Position numbers and translations under genes: made by a program. This document shows positions 30,360 through 60,574 of a stretch of 64,000 bases of DNA, one piece after another (position 1 is the first letter of the stretch; every line of letters begins with the position of its first letter). The notes below the pieces were generated by a model, which ran no database searches, was not told the DNA's origin, and was given only the letters and a program-made list of their open reading frames with translations. Origin of the DNA: Cladocopium goreaui. Its lineage: Eukaryota; Sar; Dinophyceae; Suessiales; Symbiodiniaceae. The stretch is taken from the NCBI GenBank assembly GCA_947184155.2, contig CAMXCT020006634.1, positions 408,475 through 472,474 of the forward strand, read 5' to 3'.

Positions 30360-32348
30360 TCAAGCAAACAAAGATGATGGCGCCACGAGGTAAAGATCGT
30401 CTTGAGGTGTCCAAGCACAAGCATCAACAATGCATGTAACAGGAAGAATGGATGTTTGCTCCCTGTCATCTCTGCTAAATCTGTTGTGCCCACGAGATGT
30501 CCAGTGTTCGATGCATACCCAGCATTCGGCAGAATCCTTCAAGCCAACAAAAAATTTGACTCGGCCCACACATGGTTCTTCGTCAATTTTCAGGAAAACA
30601 ACATCATCAGCTGAGCAAACAGAACCAGGGTGAAAGCATGCTGTGTTTGAAACTTCGAAATCACCATCCACATCTATCAAAGCTCTGAAATACACCTGTG
30701 CATGAAGTGTGCACTCTGCTGCATCAAGTATACCGACAGAAAACGACTCTACAGAAGAGGAATCAAGCTCACTCAGTTGCAAGTGCAACGCATCGACCAC
30801 GATACTCTTCTCAAAGCCTGCATGAGTGTTCGGGTTTTGCGACGCGTATCGTTTTATTTCACGATGGCGTCTCTCATGCGTCCAACACGAACACAAGGTT
30901 TTGTGAAAACTGTAGAGCCTTGCAAGATGAAGTGAATAGTGGTGCTTGGGCAGCCAGCGCTCTGTGCCATAAGCTTTTTGATATGCCGTCAGGTGTCCAG
31001 CCACAGCTTCGTGCAATGTGCTCGCCTTTGTGTGCCCTCGTTTGAGGGATTGCAGCAGGTCAAGCACACGACATATTTTGACAAATGAGTCAATGTGGTC
31101 TTCAATGCCTCTACATTGACCAGACCGCAGAAAACGTATCAGGATGCATCGTAGGACTGTGTAGACCGAAAGGGCTTCTGAAGCAGAGCACTTAACGCTG
31201 TCGCCCTCTTGTTTCTTGGCGAAGATCTTTTGCCCACTGACGGACCGCGAGGAGATCCGCTCTGGCCAGTGCCATGCCTGCAGCTCTCGGTGCAACATCG
31301 CTTGCGTGATTCCAACACGCTGCAGTTCGGTTAGGAGCTGCATGACTTCCAGCTGCCATATTCCGGATGCCACATAAACATGCATCCAGTCGAACATGAT
31401 GGACGATGCCGCACCGATCTGGAGCCTTGACAAAAGCAGGCCATTCTGGTTCAGATTCCAGCCGGCTTCCTGTTCCTTTTTTTGGAATCGAGTCTTTGGC
31501 AAAGTTGCTTTCCAGCGGCTCAGTTCGCGCAACGTTTCCATGACGCTTTCGTCGGTGTTTGGTCGGAACAGATCCAGGTTCAGGCACGTGCTCGGCTGGA
31601 GGTACCCACGTGTATCATGACTGTGAAGCTGAGACTTGTGGTCACAAATGTTCGCACATAGAGCACAAAAAAAAGTCCCAGCAGCTCCTTTGCAATCCAG
31701 AGTCTCTTTCAATGCCGCTTCGTCCCCCAACAGAATGCTTACACGGCCAAAGATTGTGGCCTTTGAGCCATCAAAAAAATCTAAAATGATGCCACTGCGC
31801 AAGTCATATGGCTCCATAAACATTTGCATGGAGATTTTCATGAATTGCGACATTTTGCCTGGAAGCTCCTTCACAACATCACTACGGCAAATGCTGAGAA
31901 TGAACCAAAGCCTTTCGTTGGAGAGATTGGTCAAGCCAAAACATTCAAGAGACCAGTAACACACTTGGATCTTTCTAGCGTTTTGATGACGAAGTTGATT
32001 GCCCGGTGTCACTTCGTCAGAATAGACGATGACCTTGATGGGGTGGTCTCTGGTGCATGGCTTTCGTGAAAGTATCTCCTTGAAAAATTTGCTAAATTCC
32101 AAGCATGATCGAGATATGTGGTACAGCATGGCAACGGGTTGCACCATCCAGATTTTGGTGCCTGCGATGTTCTTCTCCACTAAGATGTCACCATATGGGG
32201 TAACATGAGAGATGTCTGCCTGTCGCTTTCTCTTCACTGTCCGCCGAGTACCGCCCTTGATACCTAGTTCTTCACATAAATCTTCAAGAGCAGCTGCAGA
32301 CACAAACTTCTTCAATCCCAGTCGGTGCGTCTGTGTCCGGCCATGCAT
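30360..32348 (-). CDS. Intact transposase-like ORF, 662 aa
   Basis: Single uninterrupted ORF from an ATG preceded in frame by a TGA. Visible features in order: a KRKR basic stretch (about residue 40), an acidic VIVYSDEVTPGN segment (about 106), a Cys cluster in LDCKGAAGTFFCALC (about 220), an acidic FDWMHVY motif (about 325), WLPKHHYSLHL (about 475) and ERRHREIKRYA (about 500). The spacing of Asp-containing blocks, the CxxC and the HR/KR box recall CACTA (Tnp2) or KDZ-type DDE transposases, but the fit is by eye. No terminal repeats were identified. It could also be a domesticated host gene. The intron-free, intact frame beside intron-rich genes suggests recent arrival or an origin by retroposition. 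Confidence 0.6.
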   Translation of the reverse strand: MHGRTQTHRLGLKKFVSAAALEDLCEELGIKGGTRRTVKRKRQADISHVTPYGDILVEKNIAGTKIWMVQPVAMLYHISRSCLEFSKFFKEILSRKPCTRDHPIKVIVYSDEVTPGNQLRHQNARKIQVCYWSLECFGLTNLSNERLWFILSICRSDVVKELPGKMSQFMKISMQMFMEPYDLRSGIILDFFDGSKATIFGRVSILLGDEAALKETLDCKGAAGTFFCALCANICDHKSQLHSHDTRGYLQPSTCLNLDLFRPNTDESVMETLRELSRWKATLPKTRFQKKEQEAGWNLNQNGLLLSRLQIGAASSIMFDWMHVYVASGIWQLEVMQLLTELQRVGITQAMLHRELQAWHWPERISSRSVSGQKIFAKKQEGDSVKCSASEALSVYTVLRCILIRFLRSGQCRGIEDHIDSFVKICRVLDLLQSLKRGHTKASTLHEAVAGHLTAYQKAYGTERWLPKHHYSLHLARLYSFHKTLCSCWTHERRHREIKRYASQNPNTHAGFEKSIVVDALHLQLSELDSSSVESFSVGILDAAECTLHAQVYFRALIDVDGDFEVSNTACFHPGSVCSADDVVFLKIDEEPCVGRVKFFVGLKDSAECWVCIEHWTSRGHNRFSRDDREQTSILPVTCIVDACAWTPQDDLYLVAPSSLFA

Positions 32349-32945: not shown

Positions 32946-33466
32946 CGACCTCAAGCATCGCTCTATATAGCTCATGCCAAATGTTTTTTTGGCTAGCAAG
33001 TTGTTCCGGTCGCACAGGCTTGTTTACGACGAATTTCTGCATGTATAGCCAACAGAATCAGCCGAATATATATACAGCTGTGATTTTCAAAAGTTTGCTA
33101 CAACATGCGGTGTTTCATCCACTGTGCATGCAGTGCCAGCCGCGGACGTTGGTGCATGGTGCCAGCTGCGGACGTTGGTATAGGTGCACCTAGTTTCATC
33201 CATTCAGGGTCCAGCCAGTCACGTTGGCGACGATCTTCTTCTTGTTACTGACCCATCCCTTCTCCTGCATGTGCATCACCCACCACCTCAGTTCAATTGT
33301 TCCAATGTATATATTTTTGTATAATCCTCATGTATGTTGGACTAGCATCACATATCTGGAAGATATATATATATATGTATGTATTCATCAGCATCATATA
33401 CTTGGTACAAAAAATGCAATATATCTCTGAATGCTGGCATGCAACTGCATGCATGGGTAATAAATC

Positions 33467-36400
33467 TCAGTCCAGGCACTCGCGCCATCCCAAAGCTGGC
33501 TTGCAGTGGAAGCTGCGGTTGTAGCCCACCATATCCACATACTCCTGGTATGCCTCATCCATGTCCTCATTCCATTTCGCTGCCAACTCTGGGCGGACTC
33601 GCATTGCCTTCATCGGCTTCATGGCCTTCATGGCCTTCATGGCTTTCATGGCCTTCATGGCCTTCATGTTGATCCAATTTTCACCTACAAAATGCAGATG
33701 AGGGATCTCGGACCCAAGAAAAGAACTTGAATCTGTTACCCCATGTGAAGGGCCACAGGCCCACAAAATTGTTGCCAAAAGATCATGCTGGAAAAGCGCA
33801 TGAATGCAATCTGCCCCGGATTCAACAAAAGATCCAAGCCAGACAAGCTATACAAAAGAATCACAAGGATCAAATTCGAGAAGAAATGCGCACAGCCAAG
33901 GACAAAGCATCCACAAAACGGACACAGTGCCGATGCACGCCAAAACTGAGAGCCAACGAAAAAATTACTGATCATGTTCATTGGCAGCTCCCAAAACAGC
34001 CGCCATGCAAGCACAAATGTCTACCCACTTTGACTGTAGAAAAGCTGACAAACCCAGAGTGGGGATGCCACAAATTGATGCGACAGAGTCGCTTGCAGCA
34101 AGCTGGGCGCAAATCACAGGGGCATGCTCACCCAAGCAGGAAGACCTGACATAATCCCAACGCGGACATTGCCACCAACGATGAATCTCGGTTTCAACAC
34201 CAAGGCGACAAAACGGACAAGTAGCAGACACAGTACCGCGAGAAGACCGGTTCAGACGATCAGCAGTGAGAGTGGCACCTTGCATAATACAACGAATACT
34301 GCATGCAACCTCATCGGAACCCAGAACACGACGCAACAGAGCCCGATCAACATGTTCCAAATTGCGCATGTCACGTCTGCGCCGACTAGCAGTCTGAAAA
34401 CACACATGGCGCATGGCATCGCGCAAAGCATGCAAGCATGAAAGGCTATGTTGATGCAGTTCCCTCTTATGAAGCAAACGTGTGCTTGCAAAAGTTTTCA
34501 TCACATCAGCCATATCAGAGGCCTGGGCGAAGGATTGACACATAACTCTGCGGCGACATTCCATGGTCTTGCAGACTAGATGAAACATTTGTCCGCTTTG
34601 AGACGCCAGTTGATTCCAAGCAACCCACCTCCACCCAAAAGCCTGAAGGGCCTGTTGAAGCCGAACATAAAAGGAATCAGCAGGAGGACAAGTCATTTCA
34701 GAACATAAATGGAAATGGGACTGCAAAAGCTGTTGATATTCCAAATTGGTATTTGCCAGCCGAAACAACAACGCAACCTGTTCATGAAGCAGCGCATGAG
34801 GAATAGAGGACCGATGAATAGGACTGAGAAGAGCAAGACTAACTTCTAAGCACCTACGGGTATTGGTGCGACCACCAGAGAGCACATTGACAAGGATGCG
34901 CTGTGTGCGAGCATCAACCGCACTCAGAGGATCCCAAGCGATAGCAGAGTAAGTGAGCATATTCATCAAAGCCCCAATATCTCTAGATCGAGGTTCATAC
35001 CCGACTGACAAACACTTGAACCGTTTGGCAATGGTTAAGAACTTGTCCAACAACGCAGTCCAGTGAGCAGAAGAGCCAACGCAGAGAGCGCCGAGATCAA
35101 AATGCCCACCCAATATTTCCAAAATAGTGAGACGCCCCAAGTTGACGCCTCCAATTTGAAAATGAGCCGCGCTCACGGCATCATTGCCTGGACAAGTACT
35201 GGCCCACTTGCACTTACCGATGTTCAAGGTGACATGCTGGTCCTGAAGCCAACTAACAAAGAAATCATGCGCAGCGTGAAGCTGAGACAGATGATGCGAA
35301 GACAACAGGACATCATCAGCATAAAGCGAGATAGAAACCTCAGGAAAACGACGAGCCAACTCACGAATAGGACAGCAGAGAAACGCAGACAAACACGCCG
35401 GAGCGCTAGGGTCCCCTTGAAACAGGCCGTTAGTACTGGAGAAGGACGCGTCAGAGAAACGACCTTGGAGTTTCCAAATACGACGAAGACCAGACCACAG
35501 ACTGTGAAGAGCACTAGCACACGCAGGTTGCACGCCGCATTCAACCAAGCTGTCACGCACTTTGCGCCAAGGAAGCGAGTCGAAACACTTGTGCATGTCA
35601 TAGGAAACCAAATAAACATGACAACCAGACAAGGAAGCATTTTGACAACGAAGATACGTGGAGGCCATAGCAGCTTGGGCAGACTCACCAGTGCGAAAGC
35701 CATGAGAGCACGATGGCAGAGAACACTCCAAAACAGCATGCAGACGTTGCGCAACGACACCAGACCAAGCACGGTAAACCACAGAAGCCACAGAGATCGG
35801 ACGCAAACCAGCAGGATCAGTCAGAAAGTCAACAGAAGCTTTCTTGGGAATCAAAGTAGTCACAACCGTGCGCAAACAAGGATGCCAAGTGCCAGAAGCA
35901 GCCATGCCATACAAAACCTGAGCCAAGAGATCCCAGAAACAGGCGGGCAAGGCAAGCAACTCACACCGACGCCAACCGTCAGCACCACAAGCGGAGTGAG
36001 CCGCAATTTTGTCAACAGCAGACCGAAGATCAGAACCAGACATGCGAAGCATATCAAGCTGGTGCAACGTACTTTTGAGAGAGCTAGACAAGGCAGGCTC
36101 AGCAAAACCATTTTCGGTGAAGTTTGATGGGCAAGAAGGGGCTGCATCCGGGCGTCGAGCCAAGATCGGTTGCCAGATCTCTTCAACCTTTCGAAAGCAA
36201 GCAACGGTATCGTGAATGTTTTGCCAGGAGGTGTATTTGGCCTTAGCCCATTTGAATCTTTCAGCCTGCGACATTTGCATGCGAGTGCGCCAGGCCGACA
36301 AAACTTCATCGCGACGTTGTTTATTGCGCCGATCAATCGTGCGCCGCAACCAATCAAGTTGAGTTTGGACTTCAACCTTGCCAGGGAGTTGGCTCGGGAG

Positions 36401-39400
36401 AGGATGAGAGCGAAACACAAGGAGGATGCGACGACGAGCATTTGTCCAGATGGCTTGGCTGTGATTGTTAGCAACACAAGAATCCCAACAGGAGCACAGT
36501 TCAGCTAAGCCAGCACGAGCGCGTTCAAGTCGACGAAAGTCAACATCACCTTGGAGCCGAAGAGACTGCGGATCACAAACCCTAAGAGCAGGAACAACAG
36601 CGCGACCGAAATGGGAGGAGCACACAGTTTTTCCACCAAGTCGGCACTGCCGCGCAAGTTCACATTCAGCGAGTTGGGTCCATAGAGCATACGCATCATC
36701 AGGGCGTTCATCTTCAAGGAGATTAGAGACATGAATAAAGTCAGCAGACCAATCCTGGGACTTAACAGAACGGGAGACACACTCGGAAAGAGGGAAAGAC
36801 CGAGGAGGTTGCAAAACACTCCAAGAGTCATGAGCAGGATTGAAATCAAAATCAGCGCAAACGGGTCGGTGGGTGGGGAAGGGAGCAGCAGAGAGAACCT
36901 CCCCACACACAAAGGACTGCAACAATGAAGGAGAAAAAAGGACATGGTCGATAACGGAACCCGTGTGAGAGTTATGAGCACAGCATGTCACAACTTCCTG
37001 AGGATTGGCCGTTCGATAACCCTGCCGCACGAGCTGGTGTAAAGCAAGTGAATCCTGAAGAGAGGAATTGAGATCCCCAGCGACAAGGACATGACCGGGC
37101 AACGACAGCACCCAACCAACAATCTGGCTCAGCATGTCTTCTCGGCGTTGAACATCATGTGTGTGACCGTAGCACGCAACACAAGTAATATCCGCTTTGC
37201 CAAACTGCTGAGACACTTTGCCAGCAACAATACGACCATCGGCCCAATAATCCAACAGGCAATCCGGGAGATCAAGCGGCGAAAGACGAACGCCAGGACC
37301 ACCAATCAAGGCAACACCGCGAGACGACGAAACGCCAGGACCATGCACAGGAGCACCCCAAACTACACAACGCCCTGACTGCTGCAGTCGCATAGTAACA
37401 CTGGCTTGCCCGGTACCGGTGAGAGCAGTCTCCGAGACACACGCCAGACCAAACGTAAGAGCACAGACCGCAGCAACACGGGAAAAAAGGGAAGTCACAT
37501 TCATAGCAGCAACCCGAAACAAGGAAGGAGTTGAACCAGATTCAGTTTCACCCCCTTTGACATCAGCTTGGCCTTTCGCCTTGCGCTTCTTCTTGTTCTT
37601 CACAGAAGAGGTGGGAACAGCCACAGAGACCTTACGAGCTCCAACTACAGCAGGTTGAGCAACCGGCACAGGCAAGGTTTGATCGCGAAAACGGGAACGA
37701 CTGCGCGAACGGACAGGGCCACCAACACAAGGAGCAACAGGAACAGGGGGGCGACTGCGTTTGGAACTTTGGGCGCGATGCCATTCATGAGGAAGCAACG
37801 GGCGACGACCACGAGCTTGCGCAGCATGCGGACGATGGACAGGACGACACCAAGGAGGCGACCACCAGTCAGGAACGTCGCACACAGCCAAACTCTGACG
37901 CAAGAGGTCCCAATGACCAGCCGCCAGGACAGAAGCAAACCGATTATACCTCCCACGCTGGAGCATGCGAAACACAAGCCAGCGGACGCTTGGGCTATGG
38001 ATGCCATCATTCTGGAGTTGAGTTTGAGCTTCACGACTGTTATAAGTCAAAGCTTCACCCAGATTTTTCCAACCACCAACGTCTTGCGCCTGTTGGGCCA
38101 AAGGGAGCAAAATGGAGTCAGCGTGCAAGCGCTCAAAAATCCAAGCAACTTCAGCAAAGCCAGCAGTTTGCAAGCGAAGGATTTCAGCCACAATTGCCGG
38201 ATTGGTGGAACGGGGAAAAGAGCCCACAGGAATTGATGACAGATTGCTGCTTTGTTTTTCGACTGGCTTTTTCCGTTTTGGTAAAGCGTCCGAAGGAACA
38301 GGTTCGATAACGACCGGGGGAGGAGGGCCACAAGGGAAGGATTGGGCCTGCATCCCGGTCTGACCCTGACAAGAGGCAACAACAAGCTTATCCGCATCAC
38401 AGCCAGGGTTGCTCGCAACCGTGTCTCCTAGACGGTCACCACCGGGAGAACAAGCATCGCCAAGAGTTGAACGCACAGGCACGGACAGACCAGAACCCGG
38501 ACAAGCCAAGGACACAAGCTTCTCATGAAGGGAACCAGCTCCCCGAAGACATTGCACTTCAACCTCAAGCGCATCAACCCGCTGAGACAAAACCGCAAGC
38601 AAGCTGCGCAAATCAGCATGGAGAGGGCCGCTGGAATCATTGACACTGTCAGCACGCTTGTCAGCAGACGGCATGTCAGGGCGGTCATCCCTGCCAGGAC
38701 CAACCGTGGGGTGGGCAACAGGAGGGTTTGACGAAGGAACGGCATCAGCACATGATGCAGGCAAGGCAGCGATGTCAACAACAACAACAACAACAGCAGG
38801 AGACTGCGGCGACGATCCTTCACAACGCCGACGATACAACACAAACGACCAGGAAGAAGGCATATCCAAGATGTCTTGAGCAGAGGCAACACGACAAGTT
38901 CCATCGTCATACAACAGCCAATCGTGACCTGAACGAACAAGCAAAACATAATGCCCGGAAGACGCAGACTCACCCAAGTGACACACGGCAAGGTGCATAT
39001 CCCAAGACGCATCAGCAACAACAACCGTGTCGGGGAGTGAAATAGCCGTGTGTTTTTTCTTATCATTGACATCAGCCCTCAGAGTCTGAATGAGAAGCCA
39101 GTCATTCAAAGAAAGACGCTTAGACACAGCTTCCGCGTGTTCAGCAAAACAACATGAGCACGAGACTTCAACCTCAGGGTTGGCCGAACAGCATTGATCA
39201 TCATCAAGCAGCTTCTGCAACGAAGTAGAGCCGCCACTGGGAGCGGGAACGCGCCAAAGAGAAAAACTTGATTCAGCTGTCTTGGGCTCACTGCACCCAA
39301 CACATTCAAGAGCAACATGTTCAGTGACAGAAAGATGCGAACACAAAACCGACTCAGAGTCCAACCACTTCTGCAACCACAAAGCAGCATCTTGCTGCTG

Positions 39401-42139
39401 ACCATGCTCGAGGTGATGATGTTTGATGAAGCGCGTCCACTGGGCCGGCGACAAGTCATCCAACAAACGCCTCAAGGAAACATCTTGAAGGACAGACGAG
39501 CGCAAATCCGACTTTTTGACAATGTGAGCCAAACAACGGACAGCCACAGCCGCAAAACATGTGTTCCCGAGATTAGGCAGGGTTCCAAGCTCAAACTCAG
39601 GTTCGGTCGAAGCGAGCTCCCGAGCAACACCAGCGTTGGGCAAAGGCGGAAAAGCAACTTGATAGGCATCATCCAAAGGACCAAACGGATTAGTAGAAAG
39701 AACCCCTCCCTTAGCTCCACCCCGAGTGTCAGCACCATGGCCATTGTCAGGACCAACAGAAGCATTTTCAGAGTCAGCTCGCCGACTCTTTCGCTTTGGG
39801 CTCGCATCTTCAACATGGCGGGACGGGACAAGAGGAGGACCACCACTGGCAGGACCAGGAAGATGCTGAAGTAACAGAGTACAACCAAGCTCAGCAATTG
39901 TAAACACAATGTCCGCAGGTGGACAGGGCGCAGCTATGGTCACAACTCCCTTGAAAGACGAAACCAAGTAGGGCTTGAACGAGTCAGAGGTCAGAGTGGC
40001 AACCAGAACAGCAGGATCAAGGGATCGGGGAACATGCGCAATACGATACTTGAAGTGATCAGCAGGCACAAACACAGCATGCGGCTGCACAATGGCTTTA
40101 ACTTCTCTCTCATGATCTTTGTGGATCCTGATCCCCCAACGAAAAGGAGTACGCACAACAGACCAAGGGTGAGCAAAGCTAGCCAAATACAACTGCAAAC
40201 TTTGGCGAGTGTGGGCCGCAGAACCTTCAAGGACAGGACAGCCAGGAGAAATCCAGACGCAACACAAGTCTTTCGCCTCAGGAATGGTGTGAATATCCCG
40301 AACCAAAACGGCACTGTGCTGCGTTCCCGATTTCAAACAGGTAAGGGCATCCGCTTTTGGGAGGCGAACAGAAACGCGAATGATATCAGCCCTGACATTG
40401 TGGCCGGAGGCGGTCCATGCGCCAGCCAGCTTTTGGCCAGTGGCATCGCCAAGCATATGACTCACGTGTGAATTCAAATTCGCGACCAAAGTGTCAGACA
40501 AACGGTGAGGCAGTTTACCATGTTTGGTCTTGCCTTTGCCTTTGGACTTGCCCTTGTTGGCCAAGGAGTCCTTATCAGAATCAACAGGCGAAGAAGCAAG
40601 TTTCACAAATTTATCAAAGGCAGCCAAAACAGCTCCATCAGACAAATCTTTCCACCATTCAAGCAACACTTCAACAGAATCAACCGAAGCAAGCGATACC
40701 GTAGTCCAAGCAGTAGTTCTCAACTTGTCAGTGCCGAGGTGCGTGAGAAAAACCTTGTAAATGTGATGACTATTGTCAGGAAAGACAACAATAGTCTCGA
40801 CCGGTTGCACCTCAGAACGCGCAGTTGCTTCAAGAGTGACAAGAGTGAAAACACCAACTGGAGGGGCATGGGCAGGAACGGACCGAACAATGCGAGTAGC
40901 CTCAACCGCAGACACAAAATAGGCACCTAACTTGCGAGACCACAAGTGCGACAAAGGGTCCCCATCAGCCACATCGCGAAATGCATCATGCCTTTCTCCA
41001 CTCACAGCGTCACCATCGGTAGCTGCTGGTTTCACAACTTTCCAGTCACGAGCACGCAACCTCCATGTTTGCACTTCAGGCAAAGGAGGAGGAGCCGCCG
41101 GGGCAGCAGTTGAGAGAGAAGAAGAAACAGGGTCAATTTGATCAATTTTCTTCCACGACAACTTGGCCTTATAAGCAGCGCCACAAATAATGTCAAGCTG
41201 ATGTTTCAGCGATTCACTTTTTTGTAGTCGCCGCAAAGTGGCTTCATCTTGCGCGAGCATCCGAACTTGCTGCATGGGTGGCTTCAGTTGTCGGGCATTC
41301 AAGCCCTGCAAGATGTTGTCCAACCATGACTTGGAACCAATTTCCTCCAAACCAGTGCCCCCAAGAAGATCCGGCCACAAAGACTTCCGGACAACAACAA
41401 CGTGAGAGCGACGACACACTGTCAGCTTAGAAGGCACATGCATGACTGCCACGCACACCAGGGCCAGTAGACAAACCCACTGCGCCGCAAGATTGAGAAG
41501 GACAATCAGCAAGGACTCAAGCAAACAAAGGCTACCATCACGGAAAGGCAGCAGCAAAAAGCAAGTCAAGTCAAATCCGCAAAAACAACTGGTCAAGACA
41601 GTCAACCCAACACAAATACCCAGAAGGATATTCCAACAGTGAAGGCGAAGCATTCTGGTGATTTGCACAACTGGCTCAAAAGACAATGATGCAAACAAAG
41701 TCAAAAGAGCAAAAACGGTGTTACTAGTCTCGTCAACGAAACAAACAAGGTTGCATGACTTGCTTGTGCTACTAGACTCTGGGAGTTGCTGCTTTCCAGA
41801 CTTGGAACCAAGCTTCAAAGAAACTTGATTGGCCTCACCACTGCGGTCAAAGTGTCTGGATATTGGTGAAGCCTTCATGGCCTTCATGGCTTTCATGGCT
41901 TTCATGCAAGCCTTCGTGCTCTTCGTGGCTTTCATGATTTTCATCGGCTTCATCGTCATCCCTTTCATGCCAATCTTGCCCTTCATGCCCTTCATGACCG
42001 CGGCGGTCTTCATGACAGTGGAGCCCTTGGTGCCCTTTGCGGCAGGTCGCTTCATGACGCCAGCGAGAGTTTTGCTTGACAGCGGGATAGCGGGATATGT
42101 TTGTCTTGATGCTTCATTGAGCCATGGGGTTGACACCAT
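33467..42139 (-). CDS. Two-exon Met-Lys-repeat gene hosting a retroelement in its intron
   Basis: Exon 1 (41839-42139) runs from the ATG through KRPAAKGTKGS and a long M-K-A/M-K-G repeat region to HFDRS, and ends at G|GTGAGG, a strong donor in phase 1. Exon 2 (33467-33684) starts after TAG|GTGAAA in the matching phase, reads ENWIN, resumes the M-K-A-M repeats, and ends with a charged, non-repetitive tail (VRPELAAKWNEDMDEAYQEY) and a stop. Joined length is 519 nt, giving 172 residues. MKAM/KRPAA leaders are, to my recollection, common in Symbiodinium predicted proteins, and their function is unknown. The 8.15-kb intron holds a complete non-LTR retroelement ORF on the same strand. Splicing is inferred from phase and consensus and has not been observed. 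Confidence 0.6.
33685..41838 (-). mobile_element. LINE-like retroelement within the Met-Lys gene intron
   Basis: Boundaries are set here at the inferred host splice sites; the true ends are unknown. No poly-A tail or target-site duplication is obvious at the 3' side (33685-33964). Met-Lys-Ala codon repeats (ATGAAGGCC-type) lie on both sides, at 33600-33667 and 41875-41910. Confidence 0.6.
33965..42139 (-). CDS. Non-LTR retroelement polyprotein with USP-like, endonuclease and RT domains, 2724 codons
   Basis: One continuous ORF. Residues 1-100 are the Met-Lys host exon. About 127-233 are several hydrophobic segments that look like membrane helices. A ubiquitin-specific-protease-like domain has a Cys box LGNTCFA (Cys861) and a His box SGHYVLLV (His1063) followed by LLYDDG. 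A basic KNKKKRK stretch (about 1515) precedes an AP-endonuclease domain (AMNVTSLF about 1545, GDLNSS with Asp1689, THRPVCADF about 1760). A reverse transcriptase follows (SYDMHKCFDSLPW about 2183, NGLFQGDPSAP, YADD with Tyr2273). A CPFC...H...C tail lies near 2650. All catalytic motifs look intact, which suggests recent activity. Because exon 1 of the host reads straight in, unspliced RNA would make the fusion; the element's own start may be internal. Confidence 0.88.
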   Translation of the reverse strand: MVSTPWLNEASRQTYPAIPLSSKTLAGVMKRPAAKGTKGSTVMKTAAVMKGMKGKIGMKGMTMKPMKIMKATKSTKACMKAMKAMKAMKASPISRHFDRSGEANQVSLKLGSKSGKQQLPESSSTSKSCNLVCFVDETSNTVFALLTLFASLSFEPVVQITRMLRLHCWNILLGICVGLTVLTSCFCGFDLTCFLLLPFRDGSLCLLESLLIVLLNLAAQWVCLLALVCVAVMHVPSKLTVCRRSHVVVVRKSLWPDLLGGTGLEEIGSKSWLDNILQGLNARQLKPPMQQVRMLAQDEATLRRLQKSESLKHQLDIICGAAYKAKLSWKKIDQIDPVSSSLSTAAPAAPPPLPEVQTWRLRARDWKVVKPAATDGDAVSGERHDAFRDVADGDPLSHLWSRKLGAYFVSAVEATRIVRSVPAHAPPVGVFTLVTLEATARSEVQPVETIVVFPDNSHHIYKVFLTHLGTDKLRTTAWTTVSLASVDSVEVLLEWWKDLSDGAVLAAFDKFVKLASSPVDSDKDSLANKGKSKGKGKTKHGKLPHRLSDTLVANLNSHVSHMLGDATGQKLAGAWTASGHNVRADIIRVSVRLPKADALTCLKSGTQHSAVLVRDIHTIPEAKDLCCVWISPGCPVLEGSAAHTRQSLQLYLASFAHPWSVVRTPFRWGIRIHKDHEREVKAIVQPHAVFVPADHFKYRIAHVPRSLDPAVLVATLTSDSFKPYLVSSFKGVVTIAAPCPPADIVFTIAELGCTLLLQHLPGPASGGPPLVPSRHVEDASPKRKSRRADSENASVGPDNGHGADTRGGAKGGVLSTNPFGPLDDAYQVAFPPLPNAGVARELASTEPEFELGTLPNLGNTCFAAVAVRCLAHIVKKSDLRSSVLQDVSLRRLLDDLSPAQWTRFIKHHHLEHGQQQDAALWLQKWLDSESVLCSHLSVTEHVALECVGCSEPKTAESSFSLWRVPAPSGGSTSLQKLLDDDQCCSANPEVEVSCSCCFAEHAEAVSKRLSLNDWLLIQTLRADVNDKKKHTAISLPDTVVVADASWDMHLAVCHLGESASSGHYVLLVRSGHDWLLYDDGTCRVASAQDILDMPSSWSFVLYRRRCEGSSPQSPAVVVVVVDIAALPASCADAVPSSNPPVAHPTVGPGRDDRPDMPSADKRADSVNDSSGPLHADLRSLLAVLSQRVDALEVEVQCLRGAGSLHEKLVSLACPGSGLSVPVRSTLGDACSPGGDRLGDTVASNPGCDADKLVVASCQGQTGMQAQSFPCGPPPPVVIEPVPSDALPKRKKPVEKQSSNLSSIPVGSFPRSTNPAIVAEILRLQTAGFAEVAWIFERLHADSILLPLAQQAQDVGGWKNLGEALTYNSREAQTQLQNDGIHSPSVRWLVFRMLQRGRYNRFASVLAAGHWDLLRQSLAVCDVPDWWSPPWCRPVHRPHAAQARGRRPLLPHEWHRAQSSKRSRPPVPVAPCVGGPVRSRSRSRFRDQTLPVPVAQPAVVGARKVSVAVPTSSVKNKKKRKAKGQADVKGGETESGSTPSLFRVAAMNVTSLFSRVAAVCALTFGLACVSETALTGTGQASVTMRLQQSGRCVVWGAPVHGPGVSSSRGVALIGGPGVRLSPLDLPDCLLDYWADGRIVAGKVSQQFGKADITCVACYGHTHDVQRREDMLSQIVGWVLSLPGHVLVAGDLNSSLQDSLALHQLVRQGYRTANPQEVVTCCAHNSHTGSVIDHVLFSPSLLQSFVCGEVLSAAPFPTHRPVCADFDFNPAHDSWSVLQPPRSFPLSECVSRSVKSQDWSADFIHVSNLLEDERPDDAYALWTQLAECELARQCRLGGKTVCSSHFGRAVVPALRVCDPQSLRLQGDVDFRRLERARAGLAELCSCWDSCVANNHSQAIWTNARRRILLVFRSHPLPSQLPGKVEVQTQLDWLRRTIDRRNKQRRDEVLSAWRTRMQMSQAERFKWAKAKYTSWQNIHDTVACFRKVEEIWQPILARRPDAAPSCPSNFTENGFAEPALSSSLKSTLHQLDMLRMSGSDLRSAVDKIAAHSACGADGWRRCELLALPACFWDLLAQVLYGMAASGTWHPCLRTVVTTLIPKKASVDFLTDPAGLRPISVASVVYRAWSGVVAQRLHAVLECSLPSCSHGFRTGESAQAAMASTYLRCQNASLSGCHVYLVSYDMHKCFDSLPWRKVRDSLVECGVQPACASALHSLWSGLRRIWKLQGRFSDASFSSTNGLFQGDPSAPACLSAFLCCPIRELARRFPEVSISLYADDVLLSSHHLSQLHAAHDFFVSWLQDQHVTLNIGKCKWASTCPGNDAVSAAHFQIGGVNLGRLTILEILGGHFDLGALCVGSSAHWTALLDKFLTIAKRFKCLSVGYEPRSRDIGALMNMLTYSAIAWDPLSAVDARTQRILVNVLSGGRTNTRRCLEVSLALLSPIHRSSIPHALLHEQVALLFRLANTNLEYQQLLQSHFHLCSEMTCPPADSFYVRLQQALQAFGWRWVAWNQLASQSGQMFHLVCKTMECRRRVMCQSFAQASDMADVMKTFASTRLLHKRELHQHSLSCLHALRDAMRHVCFQTASRRRRDMRNLEHVDRALLRRVLGSDEVACSIRCIMQGATLTADRLNRSSRGTVSATCPFCRLGVETEIHRWWQCPRWDYVRSSCLGEHAPVICAQLAASDSVASICGIPTLGLSAFLQSKWVDICACMAAVLGAANEHDQ

Positions 42140-42535
42140 GCATTATATATAGGTGGCTGATGCGTGGACGTTTCGCAGGTCTGATCTGAACGTGTCCCAT
42201 CCCATGTTCCACAACTAGCGGCAACCAAGGTTACACATGTGCAACCAACACAATGCGCCTGACTTTTTTGCACTGCAGGCCGCAAATGGCTTTTCAAAAA
42301 CATATTCAACATCACCCCTCATGTGCGGTCTGGCTTAGCAAAGCCAGCTGTGGAAACAACACCCCTCATGGATGCAATTTGGCCCATTGCAAGCTCTCCG
42401 CAACATGTTTCAAAGAAACGGCTTTTGCAAGTTGGCTGAATCTGGATGCAAGCCCTATATATATATATATGTATATATTGAAATAAATGTTTATAGATAC
42501 AATATCTTCAAAGATCATGCCATGAATGCATGGGC
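42140..42535. other. Spacer with TA tract
   Basis: Contains TATATATA at 42143-42152 and 42457-42480. The first is just upstream of the Met-Lys gene ATG, but similar tracts are scattered everywhere, so no promoter is called. Confidence 0.4.
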
Positions 42536-45500
42536 TCACTTGTATCCCTCACTGTTGCTGATACGCACCCACTCTGCTCGGGTCACTCTGCGGCCTGTGT
42601 AGCTGCTTCGACGGCACTGGATGCATCCATTGCGTGCCCCTCGGCACTTCATGCATCCCAGCTTCAGGTCTCCATCATCAGCATCATCATGCCCTCCTCC
42701 GGGTGGATCAGACTTCCCCGCCGGTCGCTTTGCAATGACCTTTGCCACAGCCTTGGCTTTGGCCTTGGTCGCTGCACTCTTGGCTTTCGCCTTGCCCTTT
42801 GCCTTTGCTTTCGGCTTGCCGATCTTTTCCGCCTCCTTTGCCTCAGCTCGCTTCTGCATGGCATTGGAAGTCTTTTCCATATGCTCTTTGGCATCTGCTG
42901 GCTTCCCAGCAGTGACATCAAGGTCAAACAAGTTCACTTTGTTCTCTTCCTTCTTCTCGGCCTTCTTCTCATCCTTCTCCTGTTTCTGGTCATCCTTCTC
43001 CTCGGGATCATCCTTCTTGTCTTCCAAGGCCAGCGGCGTTTTCTCTGCAGAAGTGTCCTCCAAAGCCTTTTGCCTCTTCCTGGGCAAGTTCATCTGCAGG
43101 TTGATGCCGCCGCCGTTCTGCTGGGCCATCATGGTCTGCATGAACTGCATAAGGACTTCCATGGGGCTGACCCCACCTTCGCGTCCAGTGCTGACCCCAC
43201 CGCTGCCCGTGGCCATCATGGTCTGCTGGGCCGCATCCCTTCTCTTCCTCATCCTGACGTATTCTGCATGGACGTCCCTGCCCTCAGGCTGATCATCCTT
43301 TGAGTACGCTCTTTGCCAGAGCGCATCAGGCAGTTCATCAGGCGTGGCCGGGTACTTGATGAGAAACAAGGATGCATCAAGCCTTGGCCTGTGCTTCAGA
43401 TACGACCGCAATCTCGACTTCAAGTCTTGCAACAATTGCTCACCTGTGAGATTTGCACCCAGCTTGATGCCCAGCTGGGCAGCTGAGCCAACGATGCTAG
43501 CATATGTTCGTTCAGTGGCTAAGTGCAAGCCAATCTTTTCCATTCTCATCATCAATGTTTCGACCTTGGTCGAATGGTGACAATCTGAAGCGAGCACTTC
43601 GAGCTCTTTTGCTGTGAGGTACTTTGTGAAGCAGAGGCACTCTTGGTTTGCACGTCGGGGTGAGCCAGAAGCTCCATGAACAGCTCCTTCTTTGGGAAGG
43701 AGCGCTTTGTTCAAAGCTGATCCCAACCTCTCCTTCATGTCAGCATCCCATGGACCACCACTCAAGAGTTCTGAAAGCTGCCTGGCATGCTCAGTGCCAA
43801 TCATACCTTGCGATTTCAGCAGCCGGGTCTCGAACATCTGTGTCTGGCCTGCTAAAGTTTCCTTGAATCCTTTCTCAGAGAGAATGTTCCTCTGTTGGTT
43901 CAGGAAGTCATTCGTGTGGCGCAGGTCAGAGATCAGCTCAGACCCTATGGTCACCATGGTCCCATGCAGGCCACGTGGGTGTCTCTGAGGAAAATCCCTC
44001 TCTGAACCATGCAGGAATATAGACGAGTTGCATCAATCCATATATGTGCAAGCATGCAGGCAACAAAGTGAGAGTCATGCAATGCTTGTTGGAATGCACC
44101 GCAAGTATATATATATTTATAAATGACTCGTGCGAGCATGTGTGCCCAGCACGCTCAGATGCAACGCGCATGCAACTCGCTTCCAGGTGCGCCTCATGCC
44201 ACATGGCGTCCAAGCTGGTCCTGCGGGACGAATGAAACTGAATTTCCGGGATAGAGAGAATTCTATACCAAAAGCATGGCATAATGGTTTTCAAAGCCAG
44301 TTCCAATATCATTTGAGGATTTCTAATATGCATGCAAAGGCATGTGGCTCGTCTCTGATCAAACGGTGGACATGTTGGACAGTTGCTGGATGATGCAAAC
44401 ATTCATCCTGAAAAGATATATGAAGCAGGCTGGGCAACAGCTCGCTTGCAATATGCTGAGTGGAAATGGTGGCTAAATAGAAGTCCAAGTCTACATGATA
44501 TATGAAGGAACGATGCACGCGAGCGCAATGCGCCCAGCATGCCTATATGAAACAGGGCCTCCCATGGTGAGCTGCCGCGTGAAGGTGAGTCCTGCCACGT
44601 TGCAACGGTTTAGATTAAAAATGCCATGAATGTCATACCAGCCATGTTCATCAAAAACAGTGCATGCCATGCAACTCTATCATGTCTGGGTATACAGTCT
44701 TTACATGTACAAAACACACGATATATACATGTATTTATATATATATATATAGAGATCTATGTGTGTATATCTGACTGATGTCGACATGCGTCATGCGTCA
44801 AACACAAACTCAAACCCATAATTCGACATATCGGCCAAAAAAACTTCAAAGTAGATGGTTTGTATCATATAGATGCACCAACTAAACATCATGTGACAGG
44901 TCGAACCCCGCCTGCCAGCACAGCATTGGGCCAATTGCAATGTTCCTGCATGCGGGTTGGGCAACGAGGTATCATGGGTCACGAAAAGGGGGGTGGTGGG
45001 AGAGCTCAAAGATTCATCAGTTGTGAAGCTATATACATTAAGCATGCTGGGCAGTTGCTCGCATGTACTTCCTGTGTGACTCCTATTCCAAGACCCATTA
45101 ATTACCCCTCCAAACCCTCTTGGACATGCTGATGCACTCACTCAATACCCTTAGGTGATCTGACAAATGCCATGATCAATGCACCATGCATACCTCCAAT
45201 ATAGACGAGCTGCCGCAGAAAGGTGGTCCTGACACGCGGTGGTGGTCCACATGCACTTCTGTAGATATCAATGATGAAACCAATAATATATATATATGTA
45301 TATATATATGTATATATATGGGGAGAGTATATGAAAAGTGGATGTTATATACGAATCAGTTAGAATGAGTTGTATGGGGAACATTCTCATGCACCTGTTC
45401 CTCGGAAAGCCGCATGTAGGAAGCACGGATCCTTTTTTGACACCGCATGCTAAAGTGTCGACGCGAAGGTCTGACGCCCGCCAAAGTCAGGGCAATTATG

Positions 45501-59563: not shown

Positions 59564-59669
59564 CTGCCATGGAGTCAGATGGACACATTTCCCCAGAAGC
59601 GACAATATGTATAAGGTGTCTCATATATGTACAAATAAATAAATAAATATATATATATATGTACGTGTG

Positions 59670-60180
59670 TGTGTATACATCTGACTGATGTCGACATGCG
59701 CCGGATAGATTTCATGAACCAAACATCATGTGACGCAGGTGGAACCCCTACCACATGCGAGCAACCATGCCCAGCATGCATGCTTCTGAAGTCCGCCAGC
59801 CTGCACCGCATAATGGGGCTCACGCAGCCGCGCCAATTGGTCCTAGCTGCAGGTTGGGCAATGCGGTATAGTGGGTCACAAAAATGAGAGGTCATGACTC
59901 GTTTTTAAGTTGTGTATAAAAGGATGCTGGGCAGTTGCTCACACGCAATTCCTGTGTGAATCTTATTCCAAGACCCATAAGTTGCCACCCCAAATTAACC
60001 CTCTTGGACATGTTGGATATAGTATAACGTTGATGCGCTCACTCACTCCAAGTTTAGGTGATCTGACAGATGCCATGATCAATGCACCATGCCTCCAATA
60101 GACGAGCTGCCGCAGAAAGTTGGTCCTGACACGCTGCGTTCCACCGGCAACACTTCTGTAGATATCAACGGTCAATCTTG
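59670..60180 (+). repeat. Duplicated segment, copy 2 (other copy 44760-45275)
   Basis: Direct-orientation relative of 44760-45275. It contains a left/right motif pair at 59753-59780 and 59921-59945. On the minus strand it includes a conserved stretch encoding RTNFLRQLVYWR that also recurs at 60620-60665. Confidence 0.85.
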
Positions 60181-60574
60181 CATTAAAGGTATATGTCTGC
60201 TATAGGGTATGAAGTATATACAGCGCAACAGGCTTGATTGAATGCAATGATTAGTATGGATGGAAAATGTTTTAAGAGAAAAATATATCTTATAGACCCC
60301 GGTGAATGAACTTCGTATCAACCAAAATGATCCCAAAATGATCAAATCAAAGGCGCCACCACATTGAAGGTCGTTTGCTGATATGCCGAATGCATTCCAG
60401 TATGGATACGATGTGTTTGACTTGATGCTGGTCCAAAAATAGATATGGATACATTTCTTACATGTTAGATTTCATTGAAACATCATGGAGTCCCATGATA
60501 TGAACGATGCCACTGTTTTTGATGATTGCCACTGGCACATCATTCTTGAGTGAATGATCTGAAAGATGTGCACT

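Follow-up and report, generated by a model that had tools for sequence, protein, structure and literature searches.

A USP-bearing LINE read in frame from a Met-Lys repeat gene of Cladocopium goreaui: probable insertion into a coding repeat

Introduction

Does a retroelement whose reading frame continues that of a small gene lie in an intron of that gene, or did it insert into the coding sequence itself? The question is raised by a locus in a stretch of Cladocopium goreaui DNA (64,000 nucleotides, hereafter the window), for which a preliminary description had proposed a retroelement nested in an intron of a gene built of Met-Lys repeats. Part of that proposal stands, as the element interrupts Met-Lys coding sequence and is read in frame from the leader; the host intron is not supported. 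We give a probability of roughly 0.78 to the reading that the 9-nt coding repeat of a small Met-Lys gene was the insertion site of an APE-type LINE whose ORF is complete.

The fused reading frame

On the minus strand a single ORF, opened by an ATG at 42139 and closed by a TAA stop at 33965, runs from Met-Lys repeats into the element; an in-frame TAA lies ahead of this ATG at 42143-42145. Met-Lys coding resumes about 300 nt past the stop of the fusion ORF. The main features are as follows.

33965..42139, minus strand: fusion ORF of 2724 residues, comprising the Met-Lys leader (1-89), the element N-terminus with HFDRSG and a hydrophobic stretch (90-256), a part conserved in relatives (257-800), then USP, endonuclease, reverse transcriptase and a possible CCHC end
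41871..42139, minus strand: 5′ part (leader) of the Met-Lys repeat gene, MVSTP...MKAMKAMKAMKA, 89 codons plus two bases
33669..41870, minus strand: non-LTR retrotransposon of 8202 nt, TTCACCAATATCC to GGATCAA, with inferred ends at about 41870 and 33669
33467..33668, minus strand: 3′ part of the Met-Lys gene, MKAMKAMKAMKAMKAMKPMKAMRVRPEL...WRECLD and a stop at 33467, in the joined frame; relatives P0004 and P0005

Much of the preliminary description was recovered: the 2724-residue frame, with the retroelement on the same strand as the leader and in frame with it; a 301-nt stretch ending at CAGTG/GTGAGG and a 218-nt stretch beginning after TTTTGTAG/G; and the 172-residue protein, in matching phase, that results when the two are joined. 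The Met-Lys repeats that it had placed in both flanks were seen there in a six-frame scan of all 64 kb for the pattern MK.MK, which otherwise hit a single site (49297, MKHMKN).

What the element encodes

From sequence, the element is predicted to encode a USP-type ubiquitin protease, an APE-type endonuclease and a reverse transcriptase in one ORF, and by this domain order it is a LINE.

38870..39580, minus strand: USP/UCH domain, residues 854-1090, with the Cys box GNTC at 858 and the His box GHY at 1062
36920..37174, minus strand: second half of the APE-type endonuclease, residues 1656-1740, matching Exo_endo_phos
35198..35851, minus strand: reverse transcriptase (RVT_1), residues 2097-2314, with YADD at 2273

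The same three domains had been named beforehand, and profile matches bear them out (UCH/USP, E=4.4e-7; Exo_endo_phos, E=2.7e-4; RVT_1, E=3.5e-25); the motifs GNTC, GHY, GDLN and YADD are all found in the fusion ORF. On the isolated domain piece UCH scores 38.4 bits against a cut-off of 23.9; aligned with USP14, the His box reaches 24.8 bits and the Cys box 8.2 bits, the latter weak by itself. The endonuclease match is weak (24.8 bits on the piece against a cut-off of 24.5, and 21.2 on the whole ORF), with no relative among solved structures at E 0.1. The solved structures closest in sequence to the reverse transcriptase are R2 enzymes (E=7.4e-7), a proximity that reflects what has been solved and not clade. 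Toward the C-terminus a zinc knuckle is weakly indicated (zf-RVT, E=0.1, 13.7 bits against a cut-off of 27.5; CPFC at 2641). The N-terminus of the element (41372-41870, minus strand) carries a hydrophobic, membrane-like stretch with a mean Kyte-Doolittle value of up to 2.5 over 19 residues; the stretch is weaker in the relatives P0003 and P0008, and P0002 as called has none up to residue 400.

Contact with the repeat on both sides

The 5′ end of the element was set by comparing the window with P0006 and P0007, and both ends were also set from repeat boundaries, which places the 5′ edge directly ahead of TTCACCAATATCC (41870). Tandem Repeats Finder reports two arrays of 9-nt units, 41871-41906 and 33602-33668 (an overlapping period-39 row starts at 41869), and since these arrays are bounded at 41871 and 33668, the element adjoins the Met-Lys repeat on both sides. 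The final 18 nt of the left flank are identical to the initial 18 nt of the right flank.

41871..41888, minus strand: candidate target-site duplication, left copy CATGAAGGCCATGAAGGC, part of an 18-nt exact direct repeat
33651..33668, minus strand: candidate target-site duplication, right copy of the same exact 18-nt repeat

The 18-mer starts in the window at 33624, 33651 and 41871. Because it lies within a tandem repeat, where other registers fit and one of them gives a 29-nt match, the length and register of the duplication are uncertain. Once one 18-nt copy and the 8202-nt element are removed, the flanks close into a 453-nt frame of 150 amino acids that has no inner stop and reads as a continuous Met-Lys protein.

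No long terminal repeats were found, a blastn search of 33668-41872 against the 64-kb window matching only itself, and neither blastn nor tblastn found a second copy of the element there. At the inferred 3′ end, where GGATCAA adjoins the Met-Lys repeat, there is no poly(A) or simple tail; such tails are not universal in LINEs. Searches for DNA copies elsewhere gave 66 pattern matches in viral contigs in one search, none confirmed, and none in the others; in genome contigs, one search gave 152 pattern matches, none confirmed, and another none.

The two flanking parts resemble each other and differ from what they enclose. In the 5′ and 3′ Met-Lys parts third-position T amounts to 0.10 and 0.07 and GC3 to 0.71 and 0.78; the N-terminal and main parts of the element have 0.39 and 0.45 for the former, 0.49 and 0.45 for the latter. 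We infer that the Met-Lys parts belong to a host gene. Two database proteins, P0004 and P0005, are 96% identical to residues 122-172 of the joined Met-Lys protein. At the position of the window's stop (33467-33472, minus strand) both have LDR in place of LD and a stop, and they continue into the part that in the window is 3′ flank.

Who owns the residues ahead of the donor

If the element lay in a pre-existing host intron, with host exons ending at 41839 and 33684 as the preliminary description had it, the residues just ahead of the splice donor, which include HFDRSG, should belong to the host. Three protein searches bear on this: the first, with ORF residues 1-700, gave three proteins among 7998 scored candidates; the second, with the 3′ Met-Lys part, two of two; and the third, with a profile made of window residues 85-400 and the N-terminus of P0003, four of 8000. 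The pre-donor region is reached by four of the nine proteins found (P0003, P0006, P0007 and P0008), all four of which have HFDRSG; since the profile that retrieved three of them in the third search contained the region, finding the motif was not a blind result.

P0007 is the same element, with two differences in 194 aligned residues; its identity to the window begins at SPISRHFDRSG, and its upstream flank is unrelated (BLAST similarity to the window leader of at most 2 residues). For P0008, a diverged element, the alignment opens at ISRHFDRSG and passes through the proposed donor (48% over 63 residues, E=1e-13); for P0003, also diverged, it opens at HFDRSG (27% over 81 columns, E=1.5e-4). By these three alignments the 11 codons before the proposed donor are element and not host sequence. 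P0006 shares the Met-Lys leader of the window, one repeat shorter and with two substitutions in 59 aligned residues; it may represent this insertion as found in a different assembly. The remaining element proteins, P0001, P0002 and P0009 (the last a relative from the EukProt collection), start further in than HFDRSG. P0002, which is related along almost the entire ORF, was called without the HFDRSG part, which would speak against the motif always being present unless the start of P0002 is misplaced; the called N-termini of these relatives are not proven starts. At 40985-40993 (minus strand) the match of P0006 ends after GERHD and that of P0001 begins at HDAF, on the same codons, and the two could be halves of one copy with an insertion at this place, or mark an assembly break.

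The model of a host intron was accordingly rejected, and the claim that 41839 is the end of a host exon fell with it. The GT-AG pair in matching phase does speak for it, but 109 of 430 GT-AG pairs keep both frames open as well, the element begins immediately after the repeat array, and P0007 and P0008 already tell against a host exon end at 41839. A nested host intron needs an exon/intron boundary outside the element, whereas the donor lies inside the element's conserved N-terminus and the repeat is abutted on both sides. We consider a host intron very improbable.

A second alternative is that the MKxMKx ahead of HFDRSG is the element's own N-terminus, the downstream match being a captured host exon or the product of a preference for repeats as targets. 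P0003 starts MKTMKAMLAVEHFDRSG (MKTMKAM), and in P0007 MKSAMT stands equally far ahead of HFDRSG, so that the element might own part of the Met-Lys start. Against this, MKSAMT is not a repeat and the flank upstream of it in P0007 is unrelated, P0008 starts MTRHFDRSG, and the two Met-Lys blocks of the window share a third-position composition unlike that of the element. Copies in which the Met-Lys leader is inherent to the element had been named beforehand as an outcome that would count against a host-encoded leader; as far as P0007 shows, with its different flank, the window leader is not of this kind. Overall, an element-owned Met-Lys start seems unlikely.

Probable insertion into the coding repeat

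Contact with the repeat on both sides, the 18-nt direct repeat, the intact joined ORF and the third-position composition together favor one gene with an insertion in its coding repeat. LINEs insert by target-primed reverse transcription, and by this route the element would have entered the 9-nt ATGAAGGCC coding repeat of a Met-Lys gene that appears to have a single exon, with a duplication of about 18 nt, or two repeat units. Since this duplication spans a multiple of 9 nt, the frame runs on unbroken across the empty site. The element frame would thereby have joined the host frame, and, given transcription through the gene, translation could start at host ATGs and yield a single polyprotein of Met-Lys leader, hydrophobic N-terminus, USP, endonuclease and reverse transcriptase, in that order. 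Several points may count against an insertion: the duplication is borne by a repeat, P0002 lacks HFDRSG as called, there is no simple 3′ tail, P0003 and P0007 have Met-Lys residues of their own, and no uninterrupted Met-Lys gene was seen.

The distribution of start codons gives the leader a possible role. Up to residue 400 the fusion has 14 methionines in the leader (1 to 88), followed by those at 163, 233, 289 and 294. Since the element, counted from its inferred 5′ edge, has no in-frame ATG ahead of fusion residue 163, its full-length translation would need ATGs of the Met-rich host leader; P0008 has Met where the family of the window element has Ile. Should a preference for Met-rich repeats be true, an element without an early start codon would obtain one from the gene that it hits.

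Might the element carry its own splice sites?

The GT-AG pair that had suggested a host intron can be read in another way, as an addition to the insertion and not in competition with it: the LINE might carry its own splice sites near both ends and be removed as an intron from the coding sequence.

41833..41838, minus strand: possible splice donor GTGAGG, its first base being element base 33; the only GTRAG in 41300-42139
33685..33686, minus strand: possible splice acceptor AG/G after a T-rich tract, followed by 16 element bases; the only AGG acceptor in 33668-34000

Spliced RNA would restore the host protein with 22 additional residues (172 rather than 150 amino acids), of which 16 codons (SPISRHFDRSG, ENWIN) would come from the element and six from the duplication, and unspliced RNA would give the fusion polyprotein; this is the switch proposed in the preliminary description, with its sites moved into the element. 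The sole GTRAG (41838) and the sole AGG acceptor (33684) of the end regions do lie just inside the element and keep the phase, and PMC9860276 describes introners that bring both splice sites with them and add codons. Of 1000 shuffles of the end sequences, 5 produced a GTRAG...AGG pair that kept the frames and lay no further than 50 and 30 nt from the ends, 15 did so when the limits were 100 and 60 nt, and 46 when the limit was 300 nt. These motifs and distances were picked after being seen, so the result is a hint only, and a plain GT/AG pair arises far more readily (348, 532 and 660 of 1000 shuffles for the same three distances). Moreover, the residue that follows HFDRSG is R in P0008 and M in P0003, which makes GTRAG impossible there; splicing is proposed from the letters of the DNA, and HFDRSG is accounted for as protein sequence. 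We therefore hold splicing at the element's own sites to be doubtful. The full combination, a LINE that would insert in Met-Lys coding repeats, borrow host start codons (an ATG every 9 nt) and leave an introner-like choice between host protein and polyprotein to splicing, is more doubtful still.

Relation to known systems

Symbiodinium LINEs that took in an enzyme are on record: SymbioLINE-Dnmt acquired a DNA methyltransferase (PMC5890265) and is likewise a dinoflagellate LINE with an extra enzymatic domain in its coding region, but there the methyltransferase occupies an upstream ORF, whereas the USP of the window element is part of a single ORF. LINEs with a Ulp1-like protease have also been described (PMC4640811). 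Like the window element, they have a ubiquitin/SUMO-type cysteine protease ahead of the reverse transcriptase within one protein and insert in repeated sequence, a trait common in that group; they differ in combining Ulp1 with a restriction-like endonuclease, in place of a USP (C19) with an APE-type enzyme. Target-specific LINEs of the R1 and Tx1 clades (PMC4640811) are alike in their APE-type endonuclease and in inserting into repeated sequence, whereas a preference of the window element for Met-Lys sequence would derive from one locus (P0006 being perhaps the same insertion) and from hints in P0003 and P0007. Introners (PMC9860276) would be comparable if the window element were spliced, each being an element that acts as its own intron inside an exon and can add codons; set against them, the window holds an 8.2-kb LINE with a coding ORF and candidate splice sites read from sequence.

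Among the matches listed in searches of the open-access literature, taken by titles and abstract openings, we found neither a USP domain in an APE-type LINE, nor a preference for Met-rich repeats that provides a start codon, nor a LINE that acts as an introner. If the splice sites are used, this would be, to our knowledge, the first autonomous LINE to behave as an introner.

Could the element still be active? Over 2339 aligned residues P0001 differs from the window ORF by six residues and one 3-residue gap, and it belongs to a cluster of 143 member sequences at 90% identity, a number that counts sequences and not demonstrated copies in one genome. The near-identity and the size of the cluster suggest recent spread. 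Symbiodiniaceae LINEs are mostly old, highly diverged remnants (PMC8045281), which speaks against general activity. With its complete ORF and its few differences from a database relative, this USP-bearing LINE is a candidate active element.

Neighboring features

No relic of the dinoflagellate spliced leader was found near the element ends, and the window holds a single match with 3 mismatches, against 3.15 expected, at 36108-36122, within the element on the opposite strand. The window contains no ribozyme or other Rfam family at gathering score (one sub-threshold match in 33000-43000, Afu_190, E=4.6) and no tRNA gene according to ARAGORN. Two further ORFs lie near the element on the minus strand. 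One, upstream at 42536-43957 (473 amino acids), is Lys/Ala-rich, ends in a GCMKCRGARNGCIQCRR motif and matches no Pfam family at E 1; the other, at 30360-32348 (662 amino acids), is intact, has no Pfam match at E 0.1 and is perhaps transposase-like in appearance. Finally, diverged direct repeats occur at 44725-45299 and 59635-60196, about 14.9 kb apart, their pieces being 76 to 84% identical and one 64%.
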